Origin: a virus
Direction: 5' to 3' (one strand)
Virus record (IMG/VR): IMGVR_UViG_3300006186_000001
Coordinates: 1 to 39,840 of that record
DNA: 39,840 bases
Part shown: piece by piece, positions 4,161 through 37,086 of the stretch
Position numbering within the stretch: the first letter of the stretch is position 1
Layout: each line of letters begins with the position of its first letter
Translations under genes and position numbers: made by a program
The notes under the pieces: generated by a model
What the model saw: the letters and a program-made list of their open reading frames with translations, nothing else
The model's database searches: none
What the model was told of the DNA's origin: nothing

Positions 4161-5674
4161 CACCCACCCTCCAAATACGAATCCAACTGCTTAGGCTTCC
4201 ACTGCATGTACTCGCGTAGCACTGAGTGGTCACCCCGTTTCTCGGCCAGTTCGCGGACCGACGCGCGCTTGAACGCCTTCTCTTTGCGTGCCGCTTCGAT
4301 GTGCTCGGCGCGGCCACGTGAGTATTTCAACTTCTCGACCATTTCATCGACGGTACGTGCTGCGGCCTGGTCTTTCTTCTGAGCGGATCGGATGGCTTCT
4401 AGGTCTAGCCGTTCCAGCGAAGCCGCCGCGTCTACCTCGATCTCTTTCCTGACCTTTACTTTCTTAGGCTCTCCACACGACTTGCAAATCGCGTAGGCCG
4501 CTGAATTTGCGGTGTGGCACCGTCCGCACTCCCACAGCGCCAAGGGCTTCTCTGATTGACGCCTACGTCGTCCTTCAAGGGACCACTCCCGTGGATCATC
4601 AGGCCTTCCATGCTTTGGCACCCACTCAGGTCCGTTCCAACCGCCCACGTTGCCAACGTGGTCGAGGATGGTGCATGAACTCTTGCCCATCTCGGAGCGA
4701 AGACCACGGCCCAAGCTTTGAAGATATACCACGATGGACTCAGTAGGGCGTAGTTGTTGAATTGCCCCGACTCCTTTGACATCGAGGCCTTCCAAAAAAA
4801 GGTTGACGCTTGATATCCCGTCAAGTTTGCCCTGTTCAAAATCATGCAGGGCCGACCGAATGTCTTTTCTATCTGAAGCACCGTCAAGGTGTACACACCT
4901 GATCTCTTCATTCCTATAAGCCTCCGCCACACGTTCAGAAACAGCAATCGTCGGTGCAAATGTCAGAAACCGTCGACCCATGGCATGCGATTTATACTCA
5001 GCCACCGCATCGCCCATGATCTTTCGGTCGTTCATCATCTGGCCGACGTCGTTTAGGTCGAACTCGCCCTTAGAGTTATGCTTGGCGGTTGAAAAATCCC
5101 CGGATCCTGGAGAGAGGAAGATTTCGAAAGGGCACAACCCTTCGCCAGGATGACCACGATTCCATTCGATAAGTTCAGCCATGGAAGCCCCGGAGACAAT
5201 CGTTTCAAAGTAAGCGTCCAAGCCTGTGCCGTCCGGGCGCTCCGGGGTCGCGGTAAGCCCCAAGAATTTCGCCTTGGGATACAGTTCGAAAAGCTTGGCC
5301 CAAGTGGTCGCGCTGGCATGGTGTGCCTCATCTAGGATGATCCAGTCAGGCGGCTTTAGCGCATCGATCCGATTGCGCAATACTCCCAGGCTACAAACCA
5401 GCACATTATGCCTAGGATCAGGATGACGTCCCGTAGCAACAAGGCCATGCCGAACGCCACATTCCCTAAGCTTCGCGCTAGCCTGCTCAAGGAGGAACGA
5501 CTTATGGCACACGAACCAGACTTGTTTTCCACGTTCGGCGAGGCCCTTGACTATGAAGGACGCAATAGCCGTCTTCCCGAAACCAGTCGGGCATGACGCG
5601 ATGATTCTGTCATATCGCTTGAACTCTTTGCGCAGCGATTCGATGATCGGCCATTGGTATTGGCGTAGTTCCAA
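4160..5674 (-). CDS. Superfamily 2 DEAD/DEAH helicase with C-terminal zinc ribbon (504 aa)
   Basis: An ATP-dependent helicase of the SSL2/RAD25-like type. Motif I is C-P-T-G-F-G-K-T at 28-35. Motif II is L-D-E-A-H at 114-118. Motif III-like L-T-A-T-P-E-R follows near 148. A helicase C-domain has motif VI-like Q-S-L-G-R-G-L-R. After the motor is W-E-C-G-R-C with a second C-K-S-C, a four-Cys zinc ribbon, then a charged helical tail. The start is TTG at 5672-5674, supported by AAGGAG seven bases upstream. Such phage helicases act in recombination-dependent replication; the VRR-NUC neighbour fits this. Confidence 0.9.
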   Translation of the reverse strand: MELRQYQWPIIESLRKEFKRYDRIIASCPTGFGKTAIASFIVKGLAERGKQVWFVCHKSFLLEQASAKLRECGVRHGLVATGRHPDPRHNVLVCSLGVLRNRIDALKPPDWIILDEAHHASATTWAKLFELYPKAKFLGLTATPERPDGTGLDAYFETIVSGASMAELIEWNRGHPGEGLCPFEIFLSPGSGDFSTAKHNSKGEFDLNDVGQMMNDRKIMGDAVAEYKSHAMGRRFLTFAPTIAVSERVAEAYRNEEIRCVHLDGASDRKDIRSALHDFEQGKLDGISSVNLFLEGLDVKGVGAIQQLRPTESIVVYLQSLGRGLRSEMGKSSCTILDHVGNVGGWNGPEWVPKHGRPDDPREWSLEGRRRRQSEKPLALWECGRCHTANSAAYAICKSCGEPKKVKVRKEIEVDAAASLERLDLEAIRSAQKKDQAAARTVDEMVEKLKYSRGRAEHIEAARKEKAFKRASVRELAEKRGDHSVLREYMQWKPKQLDSYLEGG

Positions 5675-6392: not shown

Positions 6393-6461
6393 ATGGTGGG
6401 GCATATCTGACCTTGTGTCAACGCTTGACACGGATATCGGATAGGTCTAGTGTGACCTACC
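6393..6461. promoter_or_regulatory. Divergent early promoter with two operator-like palindromes
   Basis: Rightward: TTGACA (6425-6430), 17-bp spacer, TAGTGT (6448-6453). The -35 is inside the perfect 17-bp dyad GTGTCAACGCTTGACAC (6415-6431), which carries TTGACAC on both strands. The rightward -10 is exactly the 6-base centre of TAGGTC-N6-GACCTA (6442-6459). Leftward: TTGACA on the minus strand (6416-6421) with a weak CACCAT 17 bases on (6393-6398), giving a ~20-nt leader to the regulator's GTG. A protein bound to either dyad would block polymerase. The rightward promoter is well supported, the leftward one less so. Confidence 0.75.
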
Positions 6462-6492
6462 TAGGCCGCATGTGGCGGTGGTGAGGTGATTT

Positions 6493-6717
6493 GTGAATGG
6501 CGGACTCATTCATAGCTTGGAGCTATGCTCATACTTCGCTTCTGATGAAGGTCTTTGGGGTACAGAGGAAGCACTTGTTGCTGCCATTGACAGGATGAAA
6601 TCTTTGCAGGTCGTAGCAAATGAAGGCCTCCAGCAGATCATCAAAGATGGTGGCATCGACTCATACCAAACTGCGAGGTACACCCTTGAAAAAATCATCG
6701 AAATGCTTGAAAGATGA
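6493..6717 (+). CDS. Hypothetical helical protein, first gene of rightward operon (74 aa)
   Basis: GTG start at 6493 after GAGGTGA. The protein is largely helical and acidic, with E-E-A-L-V-A-A-I-D-R-M-K and a C-terminal T-L-E-K-I-I-E-M-L-E-R. It starts about 35 bases after the predicted rightward transcription start. It lacks a recognisable DNA-binding motif, so I do not call it a regulator despite its position. The AT-richer composition continues through the following small genes. Confidence 0.68.
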   Translation: MNGGLIHSLELCSYFASDEGLWGTEEALVAAIDRMKSLQVVANEGLQQIIKDGGIDSYQTARYTLEKIIEMLER

Positions 6718-31086: not shown

Positions 31087-31504
31087 GTTCCGCTTCCCTC
31101 AAAAGCGCATCGATCTGTTCCTGAAGCTGCTCAGGCGTGAGTTTCTGAAGGTTACCCTCATGTGTGATCGTCTGCTGCGCGCCCCACTGCTTGCGATTCA
31201 GACGCTCGGCTACCCACATCCTGGCTTTGATCGAATTCGAATTGTGCGCCGGATGGTCGCTACGGTTATCCGCCTTCGCGATGATCTCAAACCCTAGCTT
31301 ATTCGCGTAATCCGCCCGAGCATCATCGAACTTCTCGCCGTTACCCTCACGCAGCATCCAGTTCGTGCGCCAAGTCTGGTACGTGGGGTACGGAAGTCCC
31401 TCGGCGCGGCCTTCCTCAAGGATGACCTTGATCCAGCCATTATCGCGGATCTTCTCGATGATCTCATCGAAAATTTCGGGATCGTATGAATTAGGCATGG
31501 GCAT
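31061..31504 (-). CDS. terS: Terminase small subunit (147 aa)
   Basis: DNA-recognition subunit of the packaging motor. F-D-E-I-I-E-K-I-R-D-N-G-W near 12-24 and Y-P-T-Y-Q-T-W-R-T-N-W resemble the helix-turn-helix part of terminase small subunits. The central helices (K-A-R-M-W-V-A-E-R-L-N-R-K-Q-W-G) form the oligomerisation core. A C-terminal acidic helix (L-T-P-E-Q-L-Q-E-Q-I-D-A-L-L-R-E-A-E) would contact TerL. Its ATG overlaps the previous stop (TAATG). Confidence 0.9.
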   Translation of the reverse strand: MPMPNSYDPEIFDEIIEKIRDNGWIKVILEEGRAEGLPYPTYQTWRTNWMLREGNGEKFDDARADYANKLGFEIIAKADNRSDHPAHNSNSIKARMWVAERLNRKQWGAQQTITHEGNLQKLTPEQLQEQIDALLREAEHGSGSDGE

Positions 31505-32832
31505 TACGTCGATCCTGCGGTGTAGTGAGCCATCACATCCGATGCCGTCAGCGCCCGGGTGTAAACAGCTAGATTCTGCAACGTTCGGGTAGGAATGGAT
31601 GGCTGGGTAGAAATATACGGACCCATCAATCGATAAGCGGTTGCCGAGGCTGAAATCGCGTTAATCGGCGCTGGCTGAGTGTAATAAAGCGTGCCATTAC
31701 GATAAATACGCGTATCGGTCAGTCCAAATACAATGGCGAAATACTGACTGGTAGCAGCAATGAGCGGACCGCCATTCCCCGTGACAAGATTATTCGAACT
31801 CGCGCCTAACGATCCTGCTTCAGCCTGCCGGTCATATCGTAGCGCAGCATAAATCGTTCTGTCGTTGTCATTAGCGCTCTGAATAATACTAACACCCGAT
31901 CCATTTTCGGGATTAGCAGCGAAATTACCCCACCATTCGATGGTCAGTGGCTTGTTGTAATTAGAAAGGACCGAATTAATCGGGATTGACACATAATCCG
32001 TCATTGCGACGAACTGAGCAGCGAACCCCTGCCCGTTAGGCATAAGCGAAGGGCGCTGCCGGGTAATCGTCAATCCTGTATACGACCCATTGAGGTTCTG
32101 AATCAGTTCACGACACACCGAGTCCGTGTCACTCATCGGGTAATAGAGGTCAGGACCCTGCGAGACGATGTAATCCTGATACGTCGCTTTGGCCGCGATG
32201 GATGCAGAGTCAGGTTTCGTGCGCGTGGCAAACGATGAATCCTGCACCTTCACCGTCCAGCTGAAATTACCCTGCACCGTAGGGATACCTGACAGAACAC
32301 CATTCGTGGACAACAGAAGGCCTGGCGGAATCGAACCGGATGCGATGGTGAACACATAGTCACCCGACCCGCCAGCCGCCGTATACGTATAGCTATAGTT
32401 CTGACCCACCGTGCCCGAGGGGGCATCGCCGAAGATCTGTAGCAGTCCCGAGTTATCCGCCCTCAGATACGTCGCACCCTGTGTCACGACGCCGGATTCG
32501 CCCGTGTACCACGGCGATGGGTTGACCCCCACGACGAACATCTGATTGACCACCGAGCCATCGGTGAGCACGGCCTGGGCCTTCATGGTGCCAAGGCCAG
32601 GCGAACCAGCCACGAGCGCCACCGCAGATGAATGCGAGTCACACGTGGCATCCGACATAATCGTGACGTCAGGTCGGTCACAGCGCCATTCGACGTAAGC
32701 GATGGACTGGGCTTCGGGGATGACTGCGCGGAACTCGGCGGAGTAAATACGTGACTCACCGCGATAGAAGTCGGACCGGTGTACGCGGTCGCGCTGGAAG
32801 TCTGAGACGTAGGCTGTAAGGACGCGCGGCAT
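31504..32832 (-). CDS. Ig-like/He_PIG/LamG surface protein, first late gene (442 aa)
   Basis: Three domains. Residues ~1-112 form a beta-sandwich-like start (V-S-D-F-Q-R-D-R-V-H-R-S-D-F-Y-R-G-E-S), resembling an Ig-like bacterial surface domain. Residues ~130-200 are a putative Ig domain (G-T-V-G-Q-N-Y-S-Y-T-Y, then G-S-I-P-P-G-L-L-L-S, L-S-G-I-P-T-V-Q-G), which matches the He_PIG pattern. Residues ~225-442 are LamG-like (W-W-G-N-F-A, R-I-Y-R-N-G-T-L-Y). It opens the late operon just before terS and directly follows the terminator-ended noncoding region. It may be a capsid decoration that binds surfaces. Confidence 0.78.
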   Translation of the reverse strand: MPRVLTAYVSDFQRDRVHRSDFYRGESRIYSAEFRAVIPEAQSIAYVEWRCDRPDVTIMSDATCDSHSSAVALVAGSPGLGTMKAQAVLTDGSVVNQMFVVGVNPSPWYTGESGVVTQGATYLRADNSGLLQIFGDAPSGTVGQNYSYTYTAAGGSGDYVFTIASGSIPPGLLLSTNGVLSGIPTVQGNFSWTVKVQDSSFATRTKPDSASIAAKATYQDYIVSQGPDLYYPMSDTDSVCRELIQNLNGSYTGLTITRQRPSLMPNGQGFAAQFVAMTDYVSIPINSVLSNYNKPLTIEWWGNFAANPENGSGVSIIQSANDNDRTIYAALRYDRQAEAGSLGASSNNLVTGNGGPLIAATSQYFAIVFGLTDTRIYRNGTLYYTQPAPINAISASATAYRLMGPYISTQPSIPTRTLQNLAVYTRALTASDVMAHYTAGST

Positions 32833-32864: not shown

Positions 32865-32895
32865 AAAAAGAAAGGCTCCCGTGTTAGGAGAGCCT
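32865..32895 (-). terminator. Intrinsic terminator ending the folded noncoding segment
   Basis: On the minus strand AGGCTC pairs with GAGCCT (plus 32890-32895 with 32873-32878), extended by CC/GG across a bulged base, and is followed by TTTCTTTTT. This is a textbook intrinsic terminator. Its 3' arm can alternatively pair perfectly over 8 bp with CGGGAGCC at 32975-32982 (plus), which would prevent the terminator from forming. Confidence 0.78.
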
Positions 32896-33204
32896 CGCGG
32901 CGGCGACGGGTGGCCGGAAATGGTGGCGGTAAGGATTGTCCGGCTTGCCTCTTGATGCTTGTATTGGACTCTTTCGGGAGCCACAGCGGGCAACCATTTC
33001 AAATTAGGTGGACCGGGCCGGTGATTATCTCCGGCTTACGGGTTTTTAGGACTAGGCTTTCCCGCTATTACTGCCAAGTAGAGCGCATCAGCCTGCGCAT
33101 TCCGGTCCTAGTAAGGCTGCTGGCGAGATTGCGCAATCCACTTACCGGCTCGATGCCAACAGCCTTATTAGAGCCCTTATCGCGTGAAGGGCGGCACGCG
33201 AATA
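32896..33204 (-). ncRNA. Folded ~310-nt noncoding leader/RNA ahead of late operon
   Basis: No gene spans the segment, but it is dense in hairpins on the minus strand. They are: 33173-33192 (6 bp); 33113-33124 with 33155-33166 (12 bp, one U-G, which pairs only in the minus-strand RNA) around the palindrome GATTGCGCAATC (33127-33138); 33047-33052 with 33105-33110, enclosing 5-bp and 4-bp hairpins; and 33017-33035 (GCCGG/CCGGC). It ends at the terminator at 32865. It is either a stable RNA or a leader attenuating the late genes. No known family is recognised by eye. Confidence 0.6.
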
Positions 33205-33492
33205 TTACAGATGAACCCGAAACACCATCTCGTTAATTCGGGTTAGCGTAGACCCAAGACGCTCGTTGATGTCTTCAATGCGACCCACTAGGACGGTTGC
33301 CGGGATGACCGAAGGGGGAAGGCCCTTGGCCTCAACCGGTGACTTACCCTTAAGAGCCAGTTCGATAGCATCTTCAAGCTGAGAAAGTGCTTCATCGATA
33401 TGACTGATCTTGCCGTTGGTGATGGACAGCGCACTAAAAACGGGACCCTCGGGAGCGATGGCAGGCTGACTTGTGTAGTTAACTTCGCTCAT
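33205..33492 (-). CDS. Hypothetical protein (95 aa)
   Basis: Helical protein with an extended N-terminus (S-Q-P-A-I-A-P-E-G-P-V) and a helix I-S-H-I-D-E-A-L-S-Q-L-E-D-A-I-E-L-A-L. A second helix is I-E-D-I-N-E-R-L-G-S-T-L-T-R-I. Small phage proteins of this plan occur near late regions, but none has a known function. The folded noncoding segment begins immediately after its stop. Confidence 0.68.
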   Translation of the reverse strand: MSEVNYTSQPAIAPEGPVFSALSITNGKISHIDEALSQLEDAIELALKGKSPVEAKGLPPSVIPATVLVGRIEDINERLGSTLTRINEMVFRVHL

Positions 33493-33523
33493 CTCATTTC
33501 CTCATCGTCGTTAAAAATCGCCA

Positions 33524-33545
33524 CCCCCATCCGTGGGATGAGGGG
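33524..33545 (-). terminator. GC-rich hairpin in gap before 95-aa gene
   Basis: In the plus sequence, CCCC (33524-33527) and CATCC (33528-33532) pair with GGATG (33536-33540) and GGGG (33542-33545), with one bulged A. On the minus strand the hairpin is followed within 5 nt by TTTTT. The offset makes it a weak intrinsic terminator or a pausing/attenuation site. It lies between two small genes in the same direction. Confidence 0.45.
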
Positions 33546-33560
33546 CACATCAGGGGGCAG

Positions 33561-34195: not shown

Positions 34196-34223
34196 ATGAT
34201 ACGGGCTTAGCCGGTAATGTCAA
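34196..34223 (-). promoter_or_regulatory. Promoter B, TTGACA-16-TATCAT with TTACCGG element
   Basis: On the minus strand TTGACA (34218-34223) is followed 16 nt later by TATCAT (34196-34201). The spacer begins with TTACCGGCTAA, five bases before the -10. Promoter A at 34.5 kb has the same element at the same distance. Predicted transcription starts ~25 nt before the 61-aa gene. The -35 overlaps the end of the upstream gene. CCTACC lies one base after the -10. Confidence 0.68.
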
Positions 34224-35007: not shown

Positions 35008-37086
35008 TTATGTAAATGCGGCGAGGGAAAGCTGGATAAATTCGCCGATCTCGTGGACCTTTTTTGCCTCCTTGAGTCGCTTCAAGGACGCTCTGAAAGC
35101 CGCCTGTTTCTTGCCTGTGTGATCCTTGAAATGGGTGGCAAGCTCGTCACGATGGAGTGAAATCGTTGACCCATTTTGCATACCGTAATCCCTCAATAGG
35201 TTAAGTAATGTGGATGAATCGGTCACCCTTTCACCCTTCTCATTGGTGTAATCACCCTCGGGATTTTTCTCGATCACGGTCAGATTGAGGACCGCTGAGG
35301 TGACCGAATCACCCTCATCGTCGGTCATATCCAGATCGACGGTGGCAAATTTCAGGGCAATGTCCTTGGGCGGTTCGTGGTCCTTGCACTTCTTGTTAGC
35401 AACAACGATGACCCCGTCTTCCTTGGGTCCTTGTTGAGTGATGGCATACTCAAAGTCCAAGGCGGCGGTAAGGGCCATGGAGCCGCGCGCACGGTGTTTC
35501 TCGTTCCGATCCCTGAGGGTATGGTGGCAAAGTAGTACGGCGGCGCCTGTAGCGTGCCTGATGGCGTCGATGGCCTGGACGTAGATACCCATATCCTGAG
35601 TGGAGTTCTCGTTGCCCGGCCCGAAGGTTCGTGCAACCGTGTCCACGACCACGAGTTTGGGTGGCTCGGATAGCTCGGCTTCGAGGATCTTGATGGCGCG
35701 AAGGACAGCCGCCAGGGAATCCTGATCGGTTAGGGATGCCTGGCCGTGGCTGATGACGATGGGTGCGTTCTTGAGATCTGTCTGGCGGGCGATCTCCCAG
35801 GCACGGAAGCGCCGGGCCATCCCGTTATGTCCCTCGCCGCAGATATAGGCAACTGGGCCTTTCTGGACACGGTGGCCGTTCCAATCGCGGCCCGTGGCGA
35901 CCGAGCAGGCCAGATCGACGGATACGAAGGATTTGCCGACGCCAGGATCGGAGAAAATCATCGATATGGTATCGACTTCAAGAATATTCTTGACAAGCCA
36001 GTCCGGTTTACGAGGGTTGGCGATCAGACTGGCAACGGATGTGAATCTGAAATTAGGTATTGAGGCTGGCTCGACATCGTCCGAATCCTCATCTTGAGAT
36101 GGCGGGATCGGAAGATCGGGCGTGTAATCGATGATCCGGTCCTTGAGTAATTTGACGACATCAAGGTTTTTGGTTTCTTTATCGATTTCCGCGTCTGCGG
36201 CATCGTATCCCTTTTCAAGGGATTGAACGTCCACGATCTTTACCTTGCTGCTATCTTCCATGTGAAGCGCATTGGCGATGGCATGCATAGCCTTCACGCC
36301 TGCCGCATCGGCATCCGGCCACAGAAGGATATCCCTTCCGACGAGGGGCATGATGCTGGTCTTACCATAGGCGTTGGAACCACCGGACCAAGTAACCGTC
36401 ACATATTTAGGGAAAAGCCTTGCCGCCGCTTCTTTAGCCTTTTCACCCTCGACTAGAATGACCTTAGCGTCAGGACGCGCCTTGAGATCCATCAGACCAT
36501 ACAGCGGGCGCTCCCCTGCCATAGCCTTGGTTACCCAAGACATCTCTCCAGTCTTTACATTGGTCGCGTAGGTTACAGGTGTGAATACCTTGTTACCGTT
36601 CCAGTTCATGCGCATGACGTATCCGGCGATGCCTTCAGGCGTCTCGTACACGTAAACGTTTTCTGGATCGTACGATTTCCATTCCGAACAGTTCGGATTC
36701 CACACACGAGAAGGGTCGAACGGATCAGCGAAGTCAGGCACGAAAGGCATGACATCCCATTCGTCTGATTCGTTTTTTGGCATCGGCGGTAGCTTTGCCC
36801 TGACCCCATTAGGCTTAGGAAGCCGCTTGCCGGAGATTTTCTCGACGGCTTCAGAGAACTCGCAATCCATTATTTTCCTGACGAAATCAATGACATCGCC
36901 ATGGGCATCGCATCCATAGCAATGGAAATGATTGTCCGGATATATGGTCAGCGACGGTGTATTGTCAGGATGGAATGGGCAAACCGAGACAAGTTTTGAA
37001 CCAGATCGCTTGAGCTCTAGCCAGCGTCCAGCAACATCGGCCAGAGGGTTTGCCGCCTTGATGGCAGCAATGTCTTGCTTATCCAC
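35008..37086 (-). CDS. Primase-helicase: CHC2 zinc finger, toprim and RepA-like AAA domains (692 aa)
   Basis: A fused replicative primase and helicase. Zinc finger C36-x2-H39...C56-x2-C59 (C-P-F-H, C-Y-G-C). Toprim has L-V-E-G-E-K (Glu213) and W-P-D-A-D-A-A-G (Asp258, Asp260). Helicase Walker A is S-D-P-G-V-G-K-S (379-386), followed by S-V-D-L-A-C and Walker B L-V-V-V-D-T (478-483), then H-H-T-L-R-D, as in RepA/RecA-like phage helicases. The C-terminal ~90 residues are helical and may be winged helix. GTG start with GAGG. It lies between the structured RNA upstream and the iteron cluster downstream. Confidence 0.93.
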   Translation of the reverse strand: MDKQDIAAIKAANPLADVAGRWLELKRSGSKLVSVCPFHPDNTPSLTIYPDNHFHCYGCDAHGDVIDFVRKIMDCEFSEAVEKISGKRLPKPNGVRAKLPPMPKNESDEWDVMPFVPDFADPFDPSRVWNPNCSEWKSYDPENVYVYETPEGIAGYVMRMNWNGNKVFTPVTYATNVKTGEMSWVTKAMAGERPLYGLMDLKARPDAKVILVEGEKAKEAAARLFPKYVTVTWSGGSNAYGKTSIMPLVGRDILLWPDADAAGVKAMHAIANALHMEDSSKVKIVDVQSLEKGYDAADAEIDKETKNLDVVKLLKDRIIDYTPDLPIPPSQDEDSDDVEPASIPNFRFTSVASLIANPRKPDWLVKNILEVDTISMIFSDPGVGKSFVSVDLACSVATGRDWNGHRVQKGPVAYICGEGHNGMARRFRAWEIARQTDLKNAPIVISHGQASLTDQDSLAAVLRAIKILEAELSEPPKLVVVDTVARTFGPGNENSTQDMGIYVQAIDAIRHATGAAVLLCHHTLRDRNEKHRARGSMALTAALDFEYAITQQGPKEDGVIVVANKKCKDHEPPKDIALKFATVDLDMTDDEGDSVTSAVLNLTVIEKNPEGDYTNEKGERVTDSSTLLNLLRDYGMQNGSTISLHRDELATHFKDHTGKKQAAFRASLKRLKEAKKVHEIGEFIQLSLAAFT

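Follow-up and report, generated by a model that had tools for sequence, protein, structure and literature searches.

The gene-free gap at 32865-33204 of the virus record IMGVR_UViG_3300006186_000001 (39,840 bases; this whole stretch is hereafter called the window) carries on its minus strand a member of a family of structured phage RNA elements, which is well supported by helix covariation, geometry, strand, distribution and genomic contexts. We infer, with a probability of roughly 45%, that the element is a phage RNA that mimics tRNA and is probably cut out by tRNA-processing enzymes. The initial annotation had described the gap as the folded leader of the late operon, with a terminator and a competing anti-terminator, and had overlooked the four-arm junction at 33010-33108, closed by GGACCGG/CCGGUCC, which forms the core of the element.

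The gap lies between the early/replication block and the late block of the window. A replication gene (35008-37086) and small early genes are located upstream of it, and the late genes follow on the minus strand in the order orf442 (31504-32832, the first gene past the terminator), terS, terL, portal, scaffold and head protein. The nearest good promoter candidate for the RNA region, a sigma-70-like TTGACA-16-TATCAT at 34196-34223 (minus strand), is a consensus match only, with hexamers and spacing that are the same in L002, the nearest relative of the window (98% in TerL). The nearest named relatives by TerL are Rhizobium phages (55%). A DNA search of the gap region in phage records gave no match, and protein searches of viral contigs with orf442 and orf95 found nothing. 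orf442 has its N-terminal part only in common with L065, and little more in common with L002, the remainder being unrelated; both of these partial sharers carry the RNA element. Where the RNA region starts, orf95 (33205-33492, minus strand) is swapped for a tRNA gene in L002 (2184-2270) between conserved flanks, i.e., a gene is exchanged for a tRNA. A second non-coding patch of about 46 nt, located between orf83 and orf95 (33515-33560, minus strand), is near-identical in L002 and forms a hairpin, which is followed by a terminator-like TTTTT in the window but not in L002, where the tRNA comes next.

Much of what had been proposed for the fold of the gap was borne out by our analyses. The interval 32865-33204 holds no plausible minus-strand gene, and its minus-strand RNA folds more stably than each of 100 dinucleotide shuffles (z -2.5); a similar value was obtained for the plus strand (z -2.3). 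The 12-bp stem noticed earlier is real and corresponds to a long hairpin (33108-33171, minus strand) with 17-nt arms (33108-33124 and 33155-33171; 88% complementary) and a single wobble, which is U-G in the minus RNA; this hairpin is kept in L002, where one pair differs on both sides (C-G to G-C) and another has gone from G-C to G-U. The small hairpin GCCCUU...AAGGGC (33173-33192, minus strand) is identical in L002 and is also predicted in the L002 fold. As claimed, an intrinsic terminator closes the gap (32896-32872, minus strand, with a U-tract that reaches 32865). It combines a G+C-rich stem, a short loop and a U-tract with covariation: the stem reads AGGCUC.CC...GG.GAGCCU in the window and AGCCUG.CC...GG.CGGGCU in L002, which amounts to two two-sided compensatory changes and one U-A to U-G. 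Hence, given these compensated changes, we regard the terminator as real. The 33-nt block just ahead of it (32894-32926, minus strand) is identical in L002, where the start of the block coincides with the 3' end of the second, tandem element.

The idea of a terminator/anti-terminator switch controlling the first late gene fared differently. It draws on the covarying terminator and on an exact 8-nt complement to its arm (GGCUCCCG/CGGGAGCC, 32975-32982 with 32874-32881), which is indeed present. However, an equally long complement to the terminator arm occurs in 7% of shuffled leaders, the forced pairing is less favourable by 5.0 kcal/mol across the whole leader and by 4.5 kcal/mol locally, and the site at 32975-32982 is absent in L002, while the complement in L005, a further relative, does not exceed 5 nt. 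A conserved alternative anti-terminator pairing, as expected of an attenuator or riboswitch, was thus not found when the window, L002 and L005 were compared. Since the complement is at chance level, less stable and unconserved, we reject the switch, which appears hardly credible. The description of the gap as a leader of the late operon holds as far as its position is concerned, but the same region of L002 is an RNA array, composed of a tRNA, two tandem elements and the terminator. This arrangement, much like that of the P1 tRNA region, points to RNA genes and not to a switch that controls the first late gene.

The core element of the window (33010-33108, minus strand; covariance model R1, 79 bits, E = 4e-19) is a tRNA-like four-arm RNA domain. 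The 5' strand of its acceptor-like, 7-bp closing stem, GGACCGG (33102-33108; 98.6% of cells paired), is followed by a D-arm-like hairpin, GCGC-AGGCUGAU-GCGC (33083-33098), whose stem covaries and whose loop is conserved even where it had not been selected. Next come a variable insert (33036-33082), in which the fold predicts two small hairpins, and a T-arm-like hairpin, GCCGG-AGAUAAUCA-CCGGC (33017-33035), as read from the sequence. This last hairpin abuts the 3' strand of the closing stem, CCGGUCC (33010-33016), without a linker; its loop, AGAUAAUCA in the window versus AGAUCAGCA in the family, keeps four of the six kissing pairs in register. The covariance model detected no second copy in the window, and the counterpart of the second tandem element of L002 is degenerate here.

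Comparison of the gap between the window and L002 revealed near-identical islands between unalignable stretches, and the hairpin stems of the second L002 copy are compensated. A profile of these two sequences recovered a third relative, L005 (60% in TerL), with the element at the same place ahead of terS. Its closing stem is UUCGGUG/CACCGAA versus GGACCGG/CCGGUCC in the window, so that six of the seven pairs are changed on both sides, and the hairpins GCGC-AGGCUGAU-GCGC and GCCGG-AGAUCAGCA-CCGGC are unchanged despite the rewritten stem. The element is patchy, as among 80 TerL relatives only L002, L004/L005 and L065 have it.

The covariance-model search of related phages that had been proposed earlier found the element well beyond the window. 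Both hairpin motifs were scanned across viral contigs, each matching at least 120 of them; the motifs occur on the same strand, 50-200 nt apart, with a closing stem of new sequence around them, and at least 138 distinct cores were obtained, with an insert of 15-181 nt between the motifs. The geometry of the core does not vary: a closing stem of 7 bp is followed by three nucleotides (AAU), a 4-bp hairpin with the loop AGGCUGAU, the insert, and a 5-bp hairpin with the loop AGAUCAGCA, stacked straight onto the closing stem, whose offset is identical in 163 of 164 members. Across 135 unique sequences, at least 93% are paired over exactly seven pairs of this stem, and pairing then falls to 67, 48 and 26%. 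The family contains 55 different closing stems, six of whose seven pairs show two-sided change (42 sequences); in the 42 aligned sequences two-sided changes number 94, as compared to 25.5 in shuffles, and slid structures fail. Since members had been collected via exact motifs, each hairpin was checked in members that had been selected by the other hairpin alone. In these unselected hairpins the stems change with compensation (GCGU/ACGC, GAGC/GCUC, ACGC/GCGU) and the loops stay. The two loops are complementary over 6 nt (GCUGAU/AUCAGC), with all six pairs present in most unselected cases; as they are nearly invariant and hence show no covariation, it is their complementarity that argues for the pairing.

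Wobble pairs in the closing stems of the 135 unique sequences are G-U in 23 cases versus A-C in 4, which identifies the strand that we analysed as the RNA strand. Such an excess on one strand speaks against a DNA-level element, i.e., a site of recombination, a mobile repeat or a signal for replication, in which inverted repeats would only mimic RNA structure. The very wide and patchy spread over unrelated phages, with closing stems and inserts swapped, would suit an element of this kind, but the stems are rewritten with the loops retained, and in P1, Magnus, HC8A, phiEt88 and L002 the element shares its strand with the neighbouring tRNAs. We therefore consider a DNA-level explanation very improbable.

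Loci of the element span many species, chiefly prophages of gamma- and betaproteobacteria, and amount to hundreds of phages and prophages, with Ackermann-type phages among the carriers besides lambdoid, N4-like and P1 phages. The covariance model placed it between pR'/Q and holin in HK633, after Q and ahead of tRNA-Phe in phiEt88, and in P1 past tRNA-Asn and tRNA-Thr, as two strong copies and one weak copy. HK633 and P1 are both standard laboratory phages of E. coli. Further carriers include the P1-like RCS47, mEp460 and ep3, Taipeivirus Magnus (two copies in a tRNA array), the N4-like IME11 (in a 2-kb gap) and HC8A (adjoining tRNA-Ile). The tandem copies of P1, including the weak third one, account for a large part of the gene-poor interval from tRNA-Thr to tciA (L420, 2507-3327), across part of which a short hypothetical ORF is annotated. 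L091 has two copies about 1.7 kb apart on opposite strands (4582-4717, minus; 6445-6568, plus), an arrangement consistent with one copy per divergent transcript. When random whole-genome samples were searched (E < 1e-10), the class sample returned the seed genome only, and the phylum and order samples each returned the seed and two others; the element is rare outside prophages in these samples, which double as a specificity control. Rfam 15, at both gathering and permissive thresholds, gave no match to the element and chance matches only in the gap, and no description of the element was found in the open-access literature (subscription papers were outside that search).

The flanks reveal four recurring settings: the N leader, the late leader after Q, an array of tRNAs or tRNA remnants, and a position shortly before a terminator. 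In the N leader, the copies immediately precede the ribosome-binding site of N, whose product was recognised as N-like with PHROG 271 and the Pfam family N_peptide. A terminator occurs at most 130 nt downstream of the element in 33 of 191 cases versus 6% of random stretches, and some copies begin immediately past another terminator. The lambda N leader has a long RNase III stem between nut and the start of N; this hairpin occupies the same place as the N-leader copies, but it is a long stem with no tRNA-like junction. Like the element, HK022 put, which counters termination via the beta' zinc domain of RNA polymerase, is a structured RNA found in phage leaders, upstream of terminators, and a nascent-RNA antiterminator working in this way would bind the elongating RNA polymerase and carry it past the terminator at 32896-32872 and further ones. 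The copies just upstream of N, those after Q in HK633 and phiEt88, and the downstream terminators, present in both the window and L005, would agree with such a role. However, N or Q is already present in those phages, and copies are also found in tandem, in tRNA arrays or straight after another terminator. Moreover, put RNA is about 70 nt long and consists of two stem-loops with a 5' triplex (PMC9378689), an architecture that differs from that of the element. Antitermination of this kind is thus, in our view, unlikely. As for the likeness to put suggested by the initial annotation, family membership does not hold, since no member was found at the HK022 early promoter regions; the only match in HK022 is an 18.8-bit one in the nin region. 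Put may nevertheless serve as a loose functional analogy, given that relatives of the element occur in N leaders, after Q and often upstream of terminators. The T4 stable RNAs C and D are likewise small phage RNAs within a tRNA cluster; tried as relatives, rnaC and rnaD did not match the family model when it was run without filters.

The inserts have features of their own. T-arms were detected within 9 of 138 inserts, as compared to 0.075 expected, and in L171 and L275 the insert encloses a tRNA called by ARAGORN. Identical inserts recur under different closing stems; thus, core and insert are modular. An insert type ending in GUGAAACYCCGGUGUCA is combined with several unrelated closing stems in phages of Pseudomonas and of enterobacteria, and another ends in AAAACGAGGCG...CGCCUAU; insert types were observed in L210, L382, L411, L392, L377, L361 and L237. 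Such inserts look like conserved RNAs in their own right. ROOL and GOLLD are also phage and prophage RNAs near tRNA islands, with kissing loops and a variable linker that possibly holds a tRNA (PMC12286853). By analogy, the element could act in trans, as an RNA or assembly in which separate molecules pair through kissing loops and carry the insert as cargo or effector, or as a decoy for tRNA-attacking enzymes. The complementary loops, the phage and tRNA-island context, and the variable inserts, which are shared between different closing stems and sometimes include tRNAs, as in GOLLD (PMC12286853), would fit this explanation. On the other hand, ROOL and GOLLD exceed 500 nt whereas the element measures about 70-240 nt, they are unrelated to it in sequence and structure, and their Rfam models do not match it; furthermore, the strictly constant linker lengths suit an intramolecular elbow. 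Hence, we regard a trans-acting or decoy role as rather doubtful.

The tRNA-mimic reading starts from the dimensions of the arms. In tRNA, the acceptor has 7 bp, the D arm 4 bp with a loop of 8-9 nt, and the T arm 5 bp; RNase P gauges the acceptor/T stack from the elbow and also cuts non-tRNA RNAs that present such a stack (PMC4919913). Since the arm lengths of the element equal those of tRNA and RNase P measures precisely this stack, we favour an excised tRNA mimic. As in tRNA and tRNA-like RNAs (tmRNA, viral TLS), the element has a 7-bp closing stem beyond which pairing drops sharply, a 4-bp arm with an 8-nt loop and a 5-bp arm stacked without a linker, and it occurs beside and around tRNAs. 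Unlike tRNA, it has a second loop of 9 nt (AGAUCAGCA) instead of a 7-nt UUCRA T-loop, a 6-nt complementarity between the loops, a 3-nt linker and no fixed anticodon arm, and ARAGORN makes no call on it. It is also mostly without an NCCA end: an encoded NCCA right after the closing stem is weakly enriched (15 of 136, about 11%), and CC, at the offset where it would be expected immediately 3' of the 7-bp stem, is enriched about twofold. The 9-nt loop, the lack of a constant anticodon arm and the usual absence of NCCA count against a tRNA mimic, as do the loop pairing without covariation, the four of six pairs in the window copy and the patchiness of the family. Additionally, since many copies are located not with tRNAs but in mRNA leaders, immediately ahead of N, a cis role fits as well.

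If the element is a tRNA mimic, the gap would encode RNA on the minus strand, and the core at 33010-33108 would copy the acceptor, D and T arms of tRNA, with the closing stem and the 5-bp hairpin forming a 12-bp coaxial stack. The elbow would probably arise from the loop pairing GCUGAU/AUCAGC, replacing the T-loop/D-loop contact, and the place of the anticodon arm would be taken by the freely exchangeable insert, which in some phages is a whole tRNA. Possibly, the element folds during transcription, and its stack and elbow would be recognised by tRNA-processing enzymes, RNase P first, whose cuts at the ends of the element would release a stable RNA bearing the insert and cleave the host transcript at that point. 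The RNA unit would then stop at the terminator (32896-32872), except when late transcription continues past it into orf442. Going further, we tentatively speculate that tRNA mimics with a kissing-loop elbow could form a new class, serving many proteobacterial phages as a cassette that these enzymes excise and whose interchangeable insert (a tRNA, antisense or decoy RNA) would be the effector supplied during infection.

The element is not put, T4 rnaC/rnaD or a canonical tRNA, and in kind it falls among the phage structured RNAs near tRNA islands. It is an RNA domain as regular as tRNA across P1, lambdoid, N4-like and Ackermann-type phages, yet unmatched in Rfam 15. Like ROOL and GOLLD, the element would bear on why phages encode elaborate RNAs next to their tRNA genes, and gene-free stretches of phage genomes, including one of about 0.9 kb in P1, may be accounted for by it.
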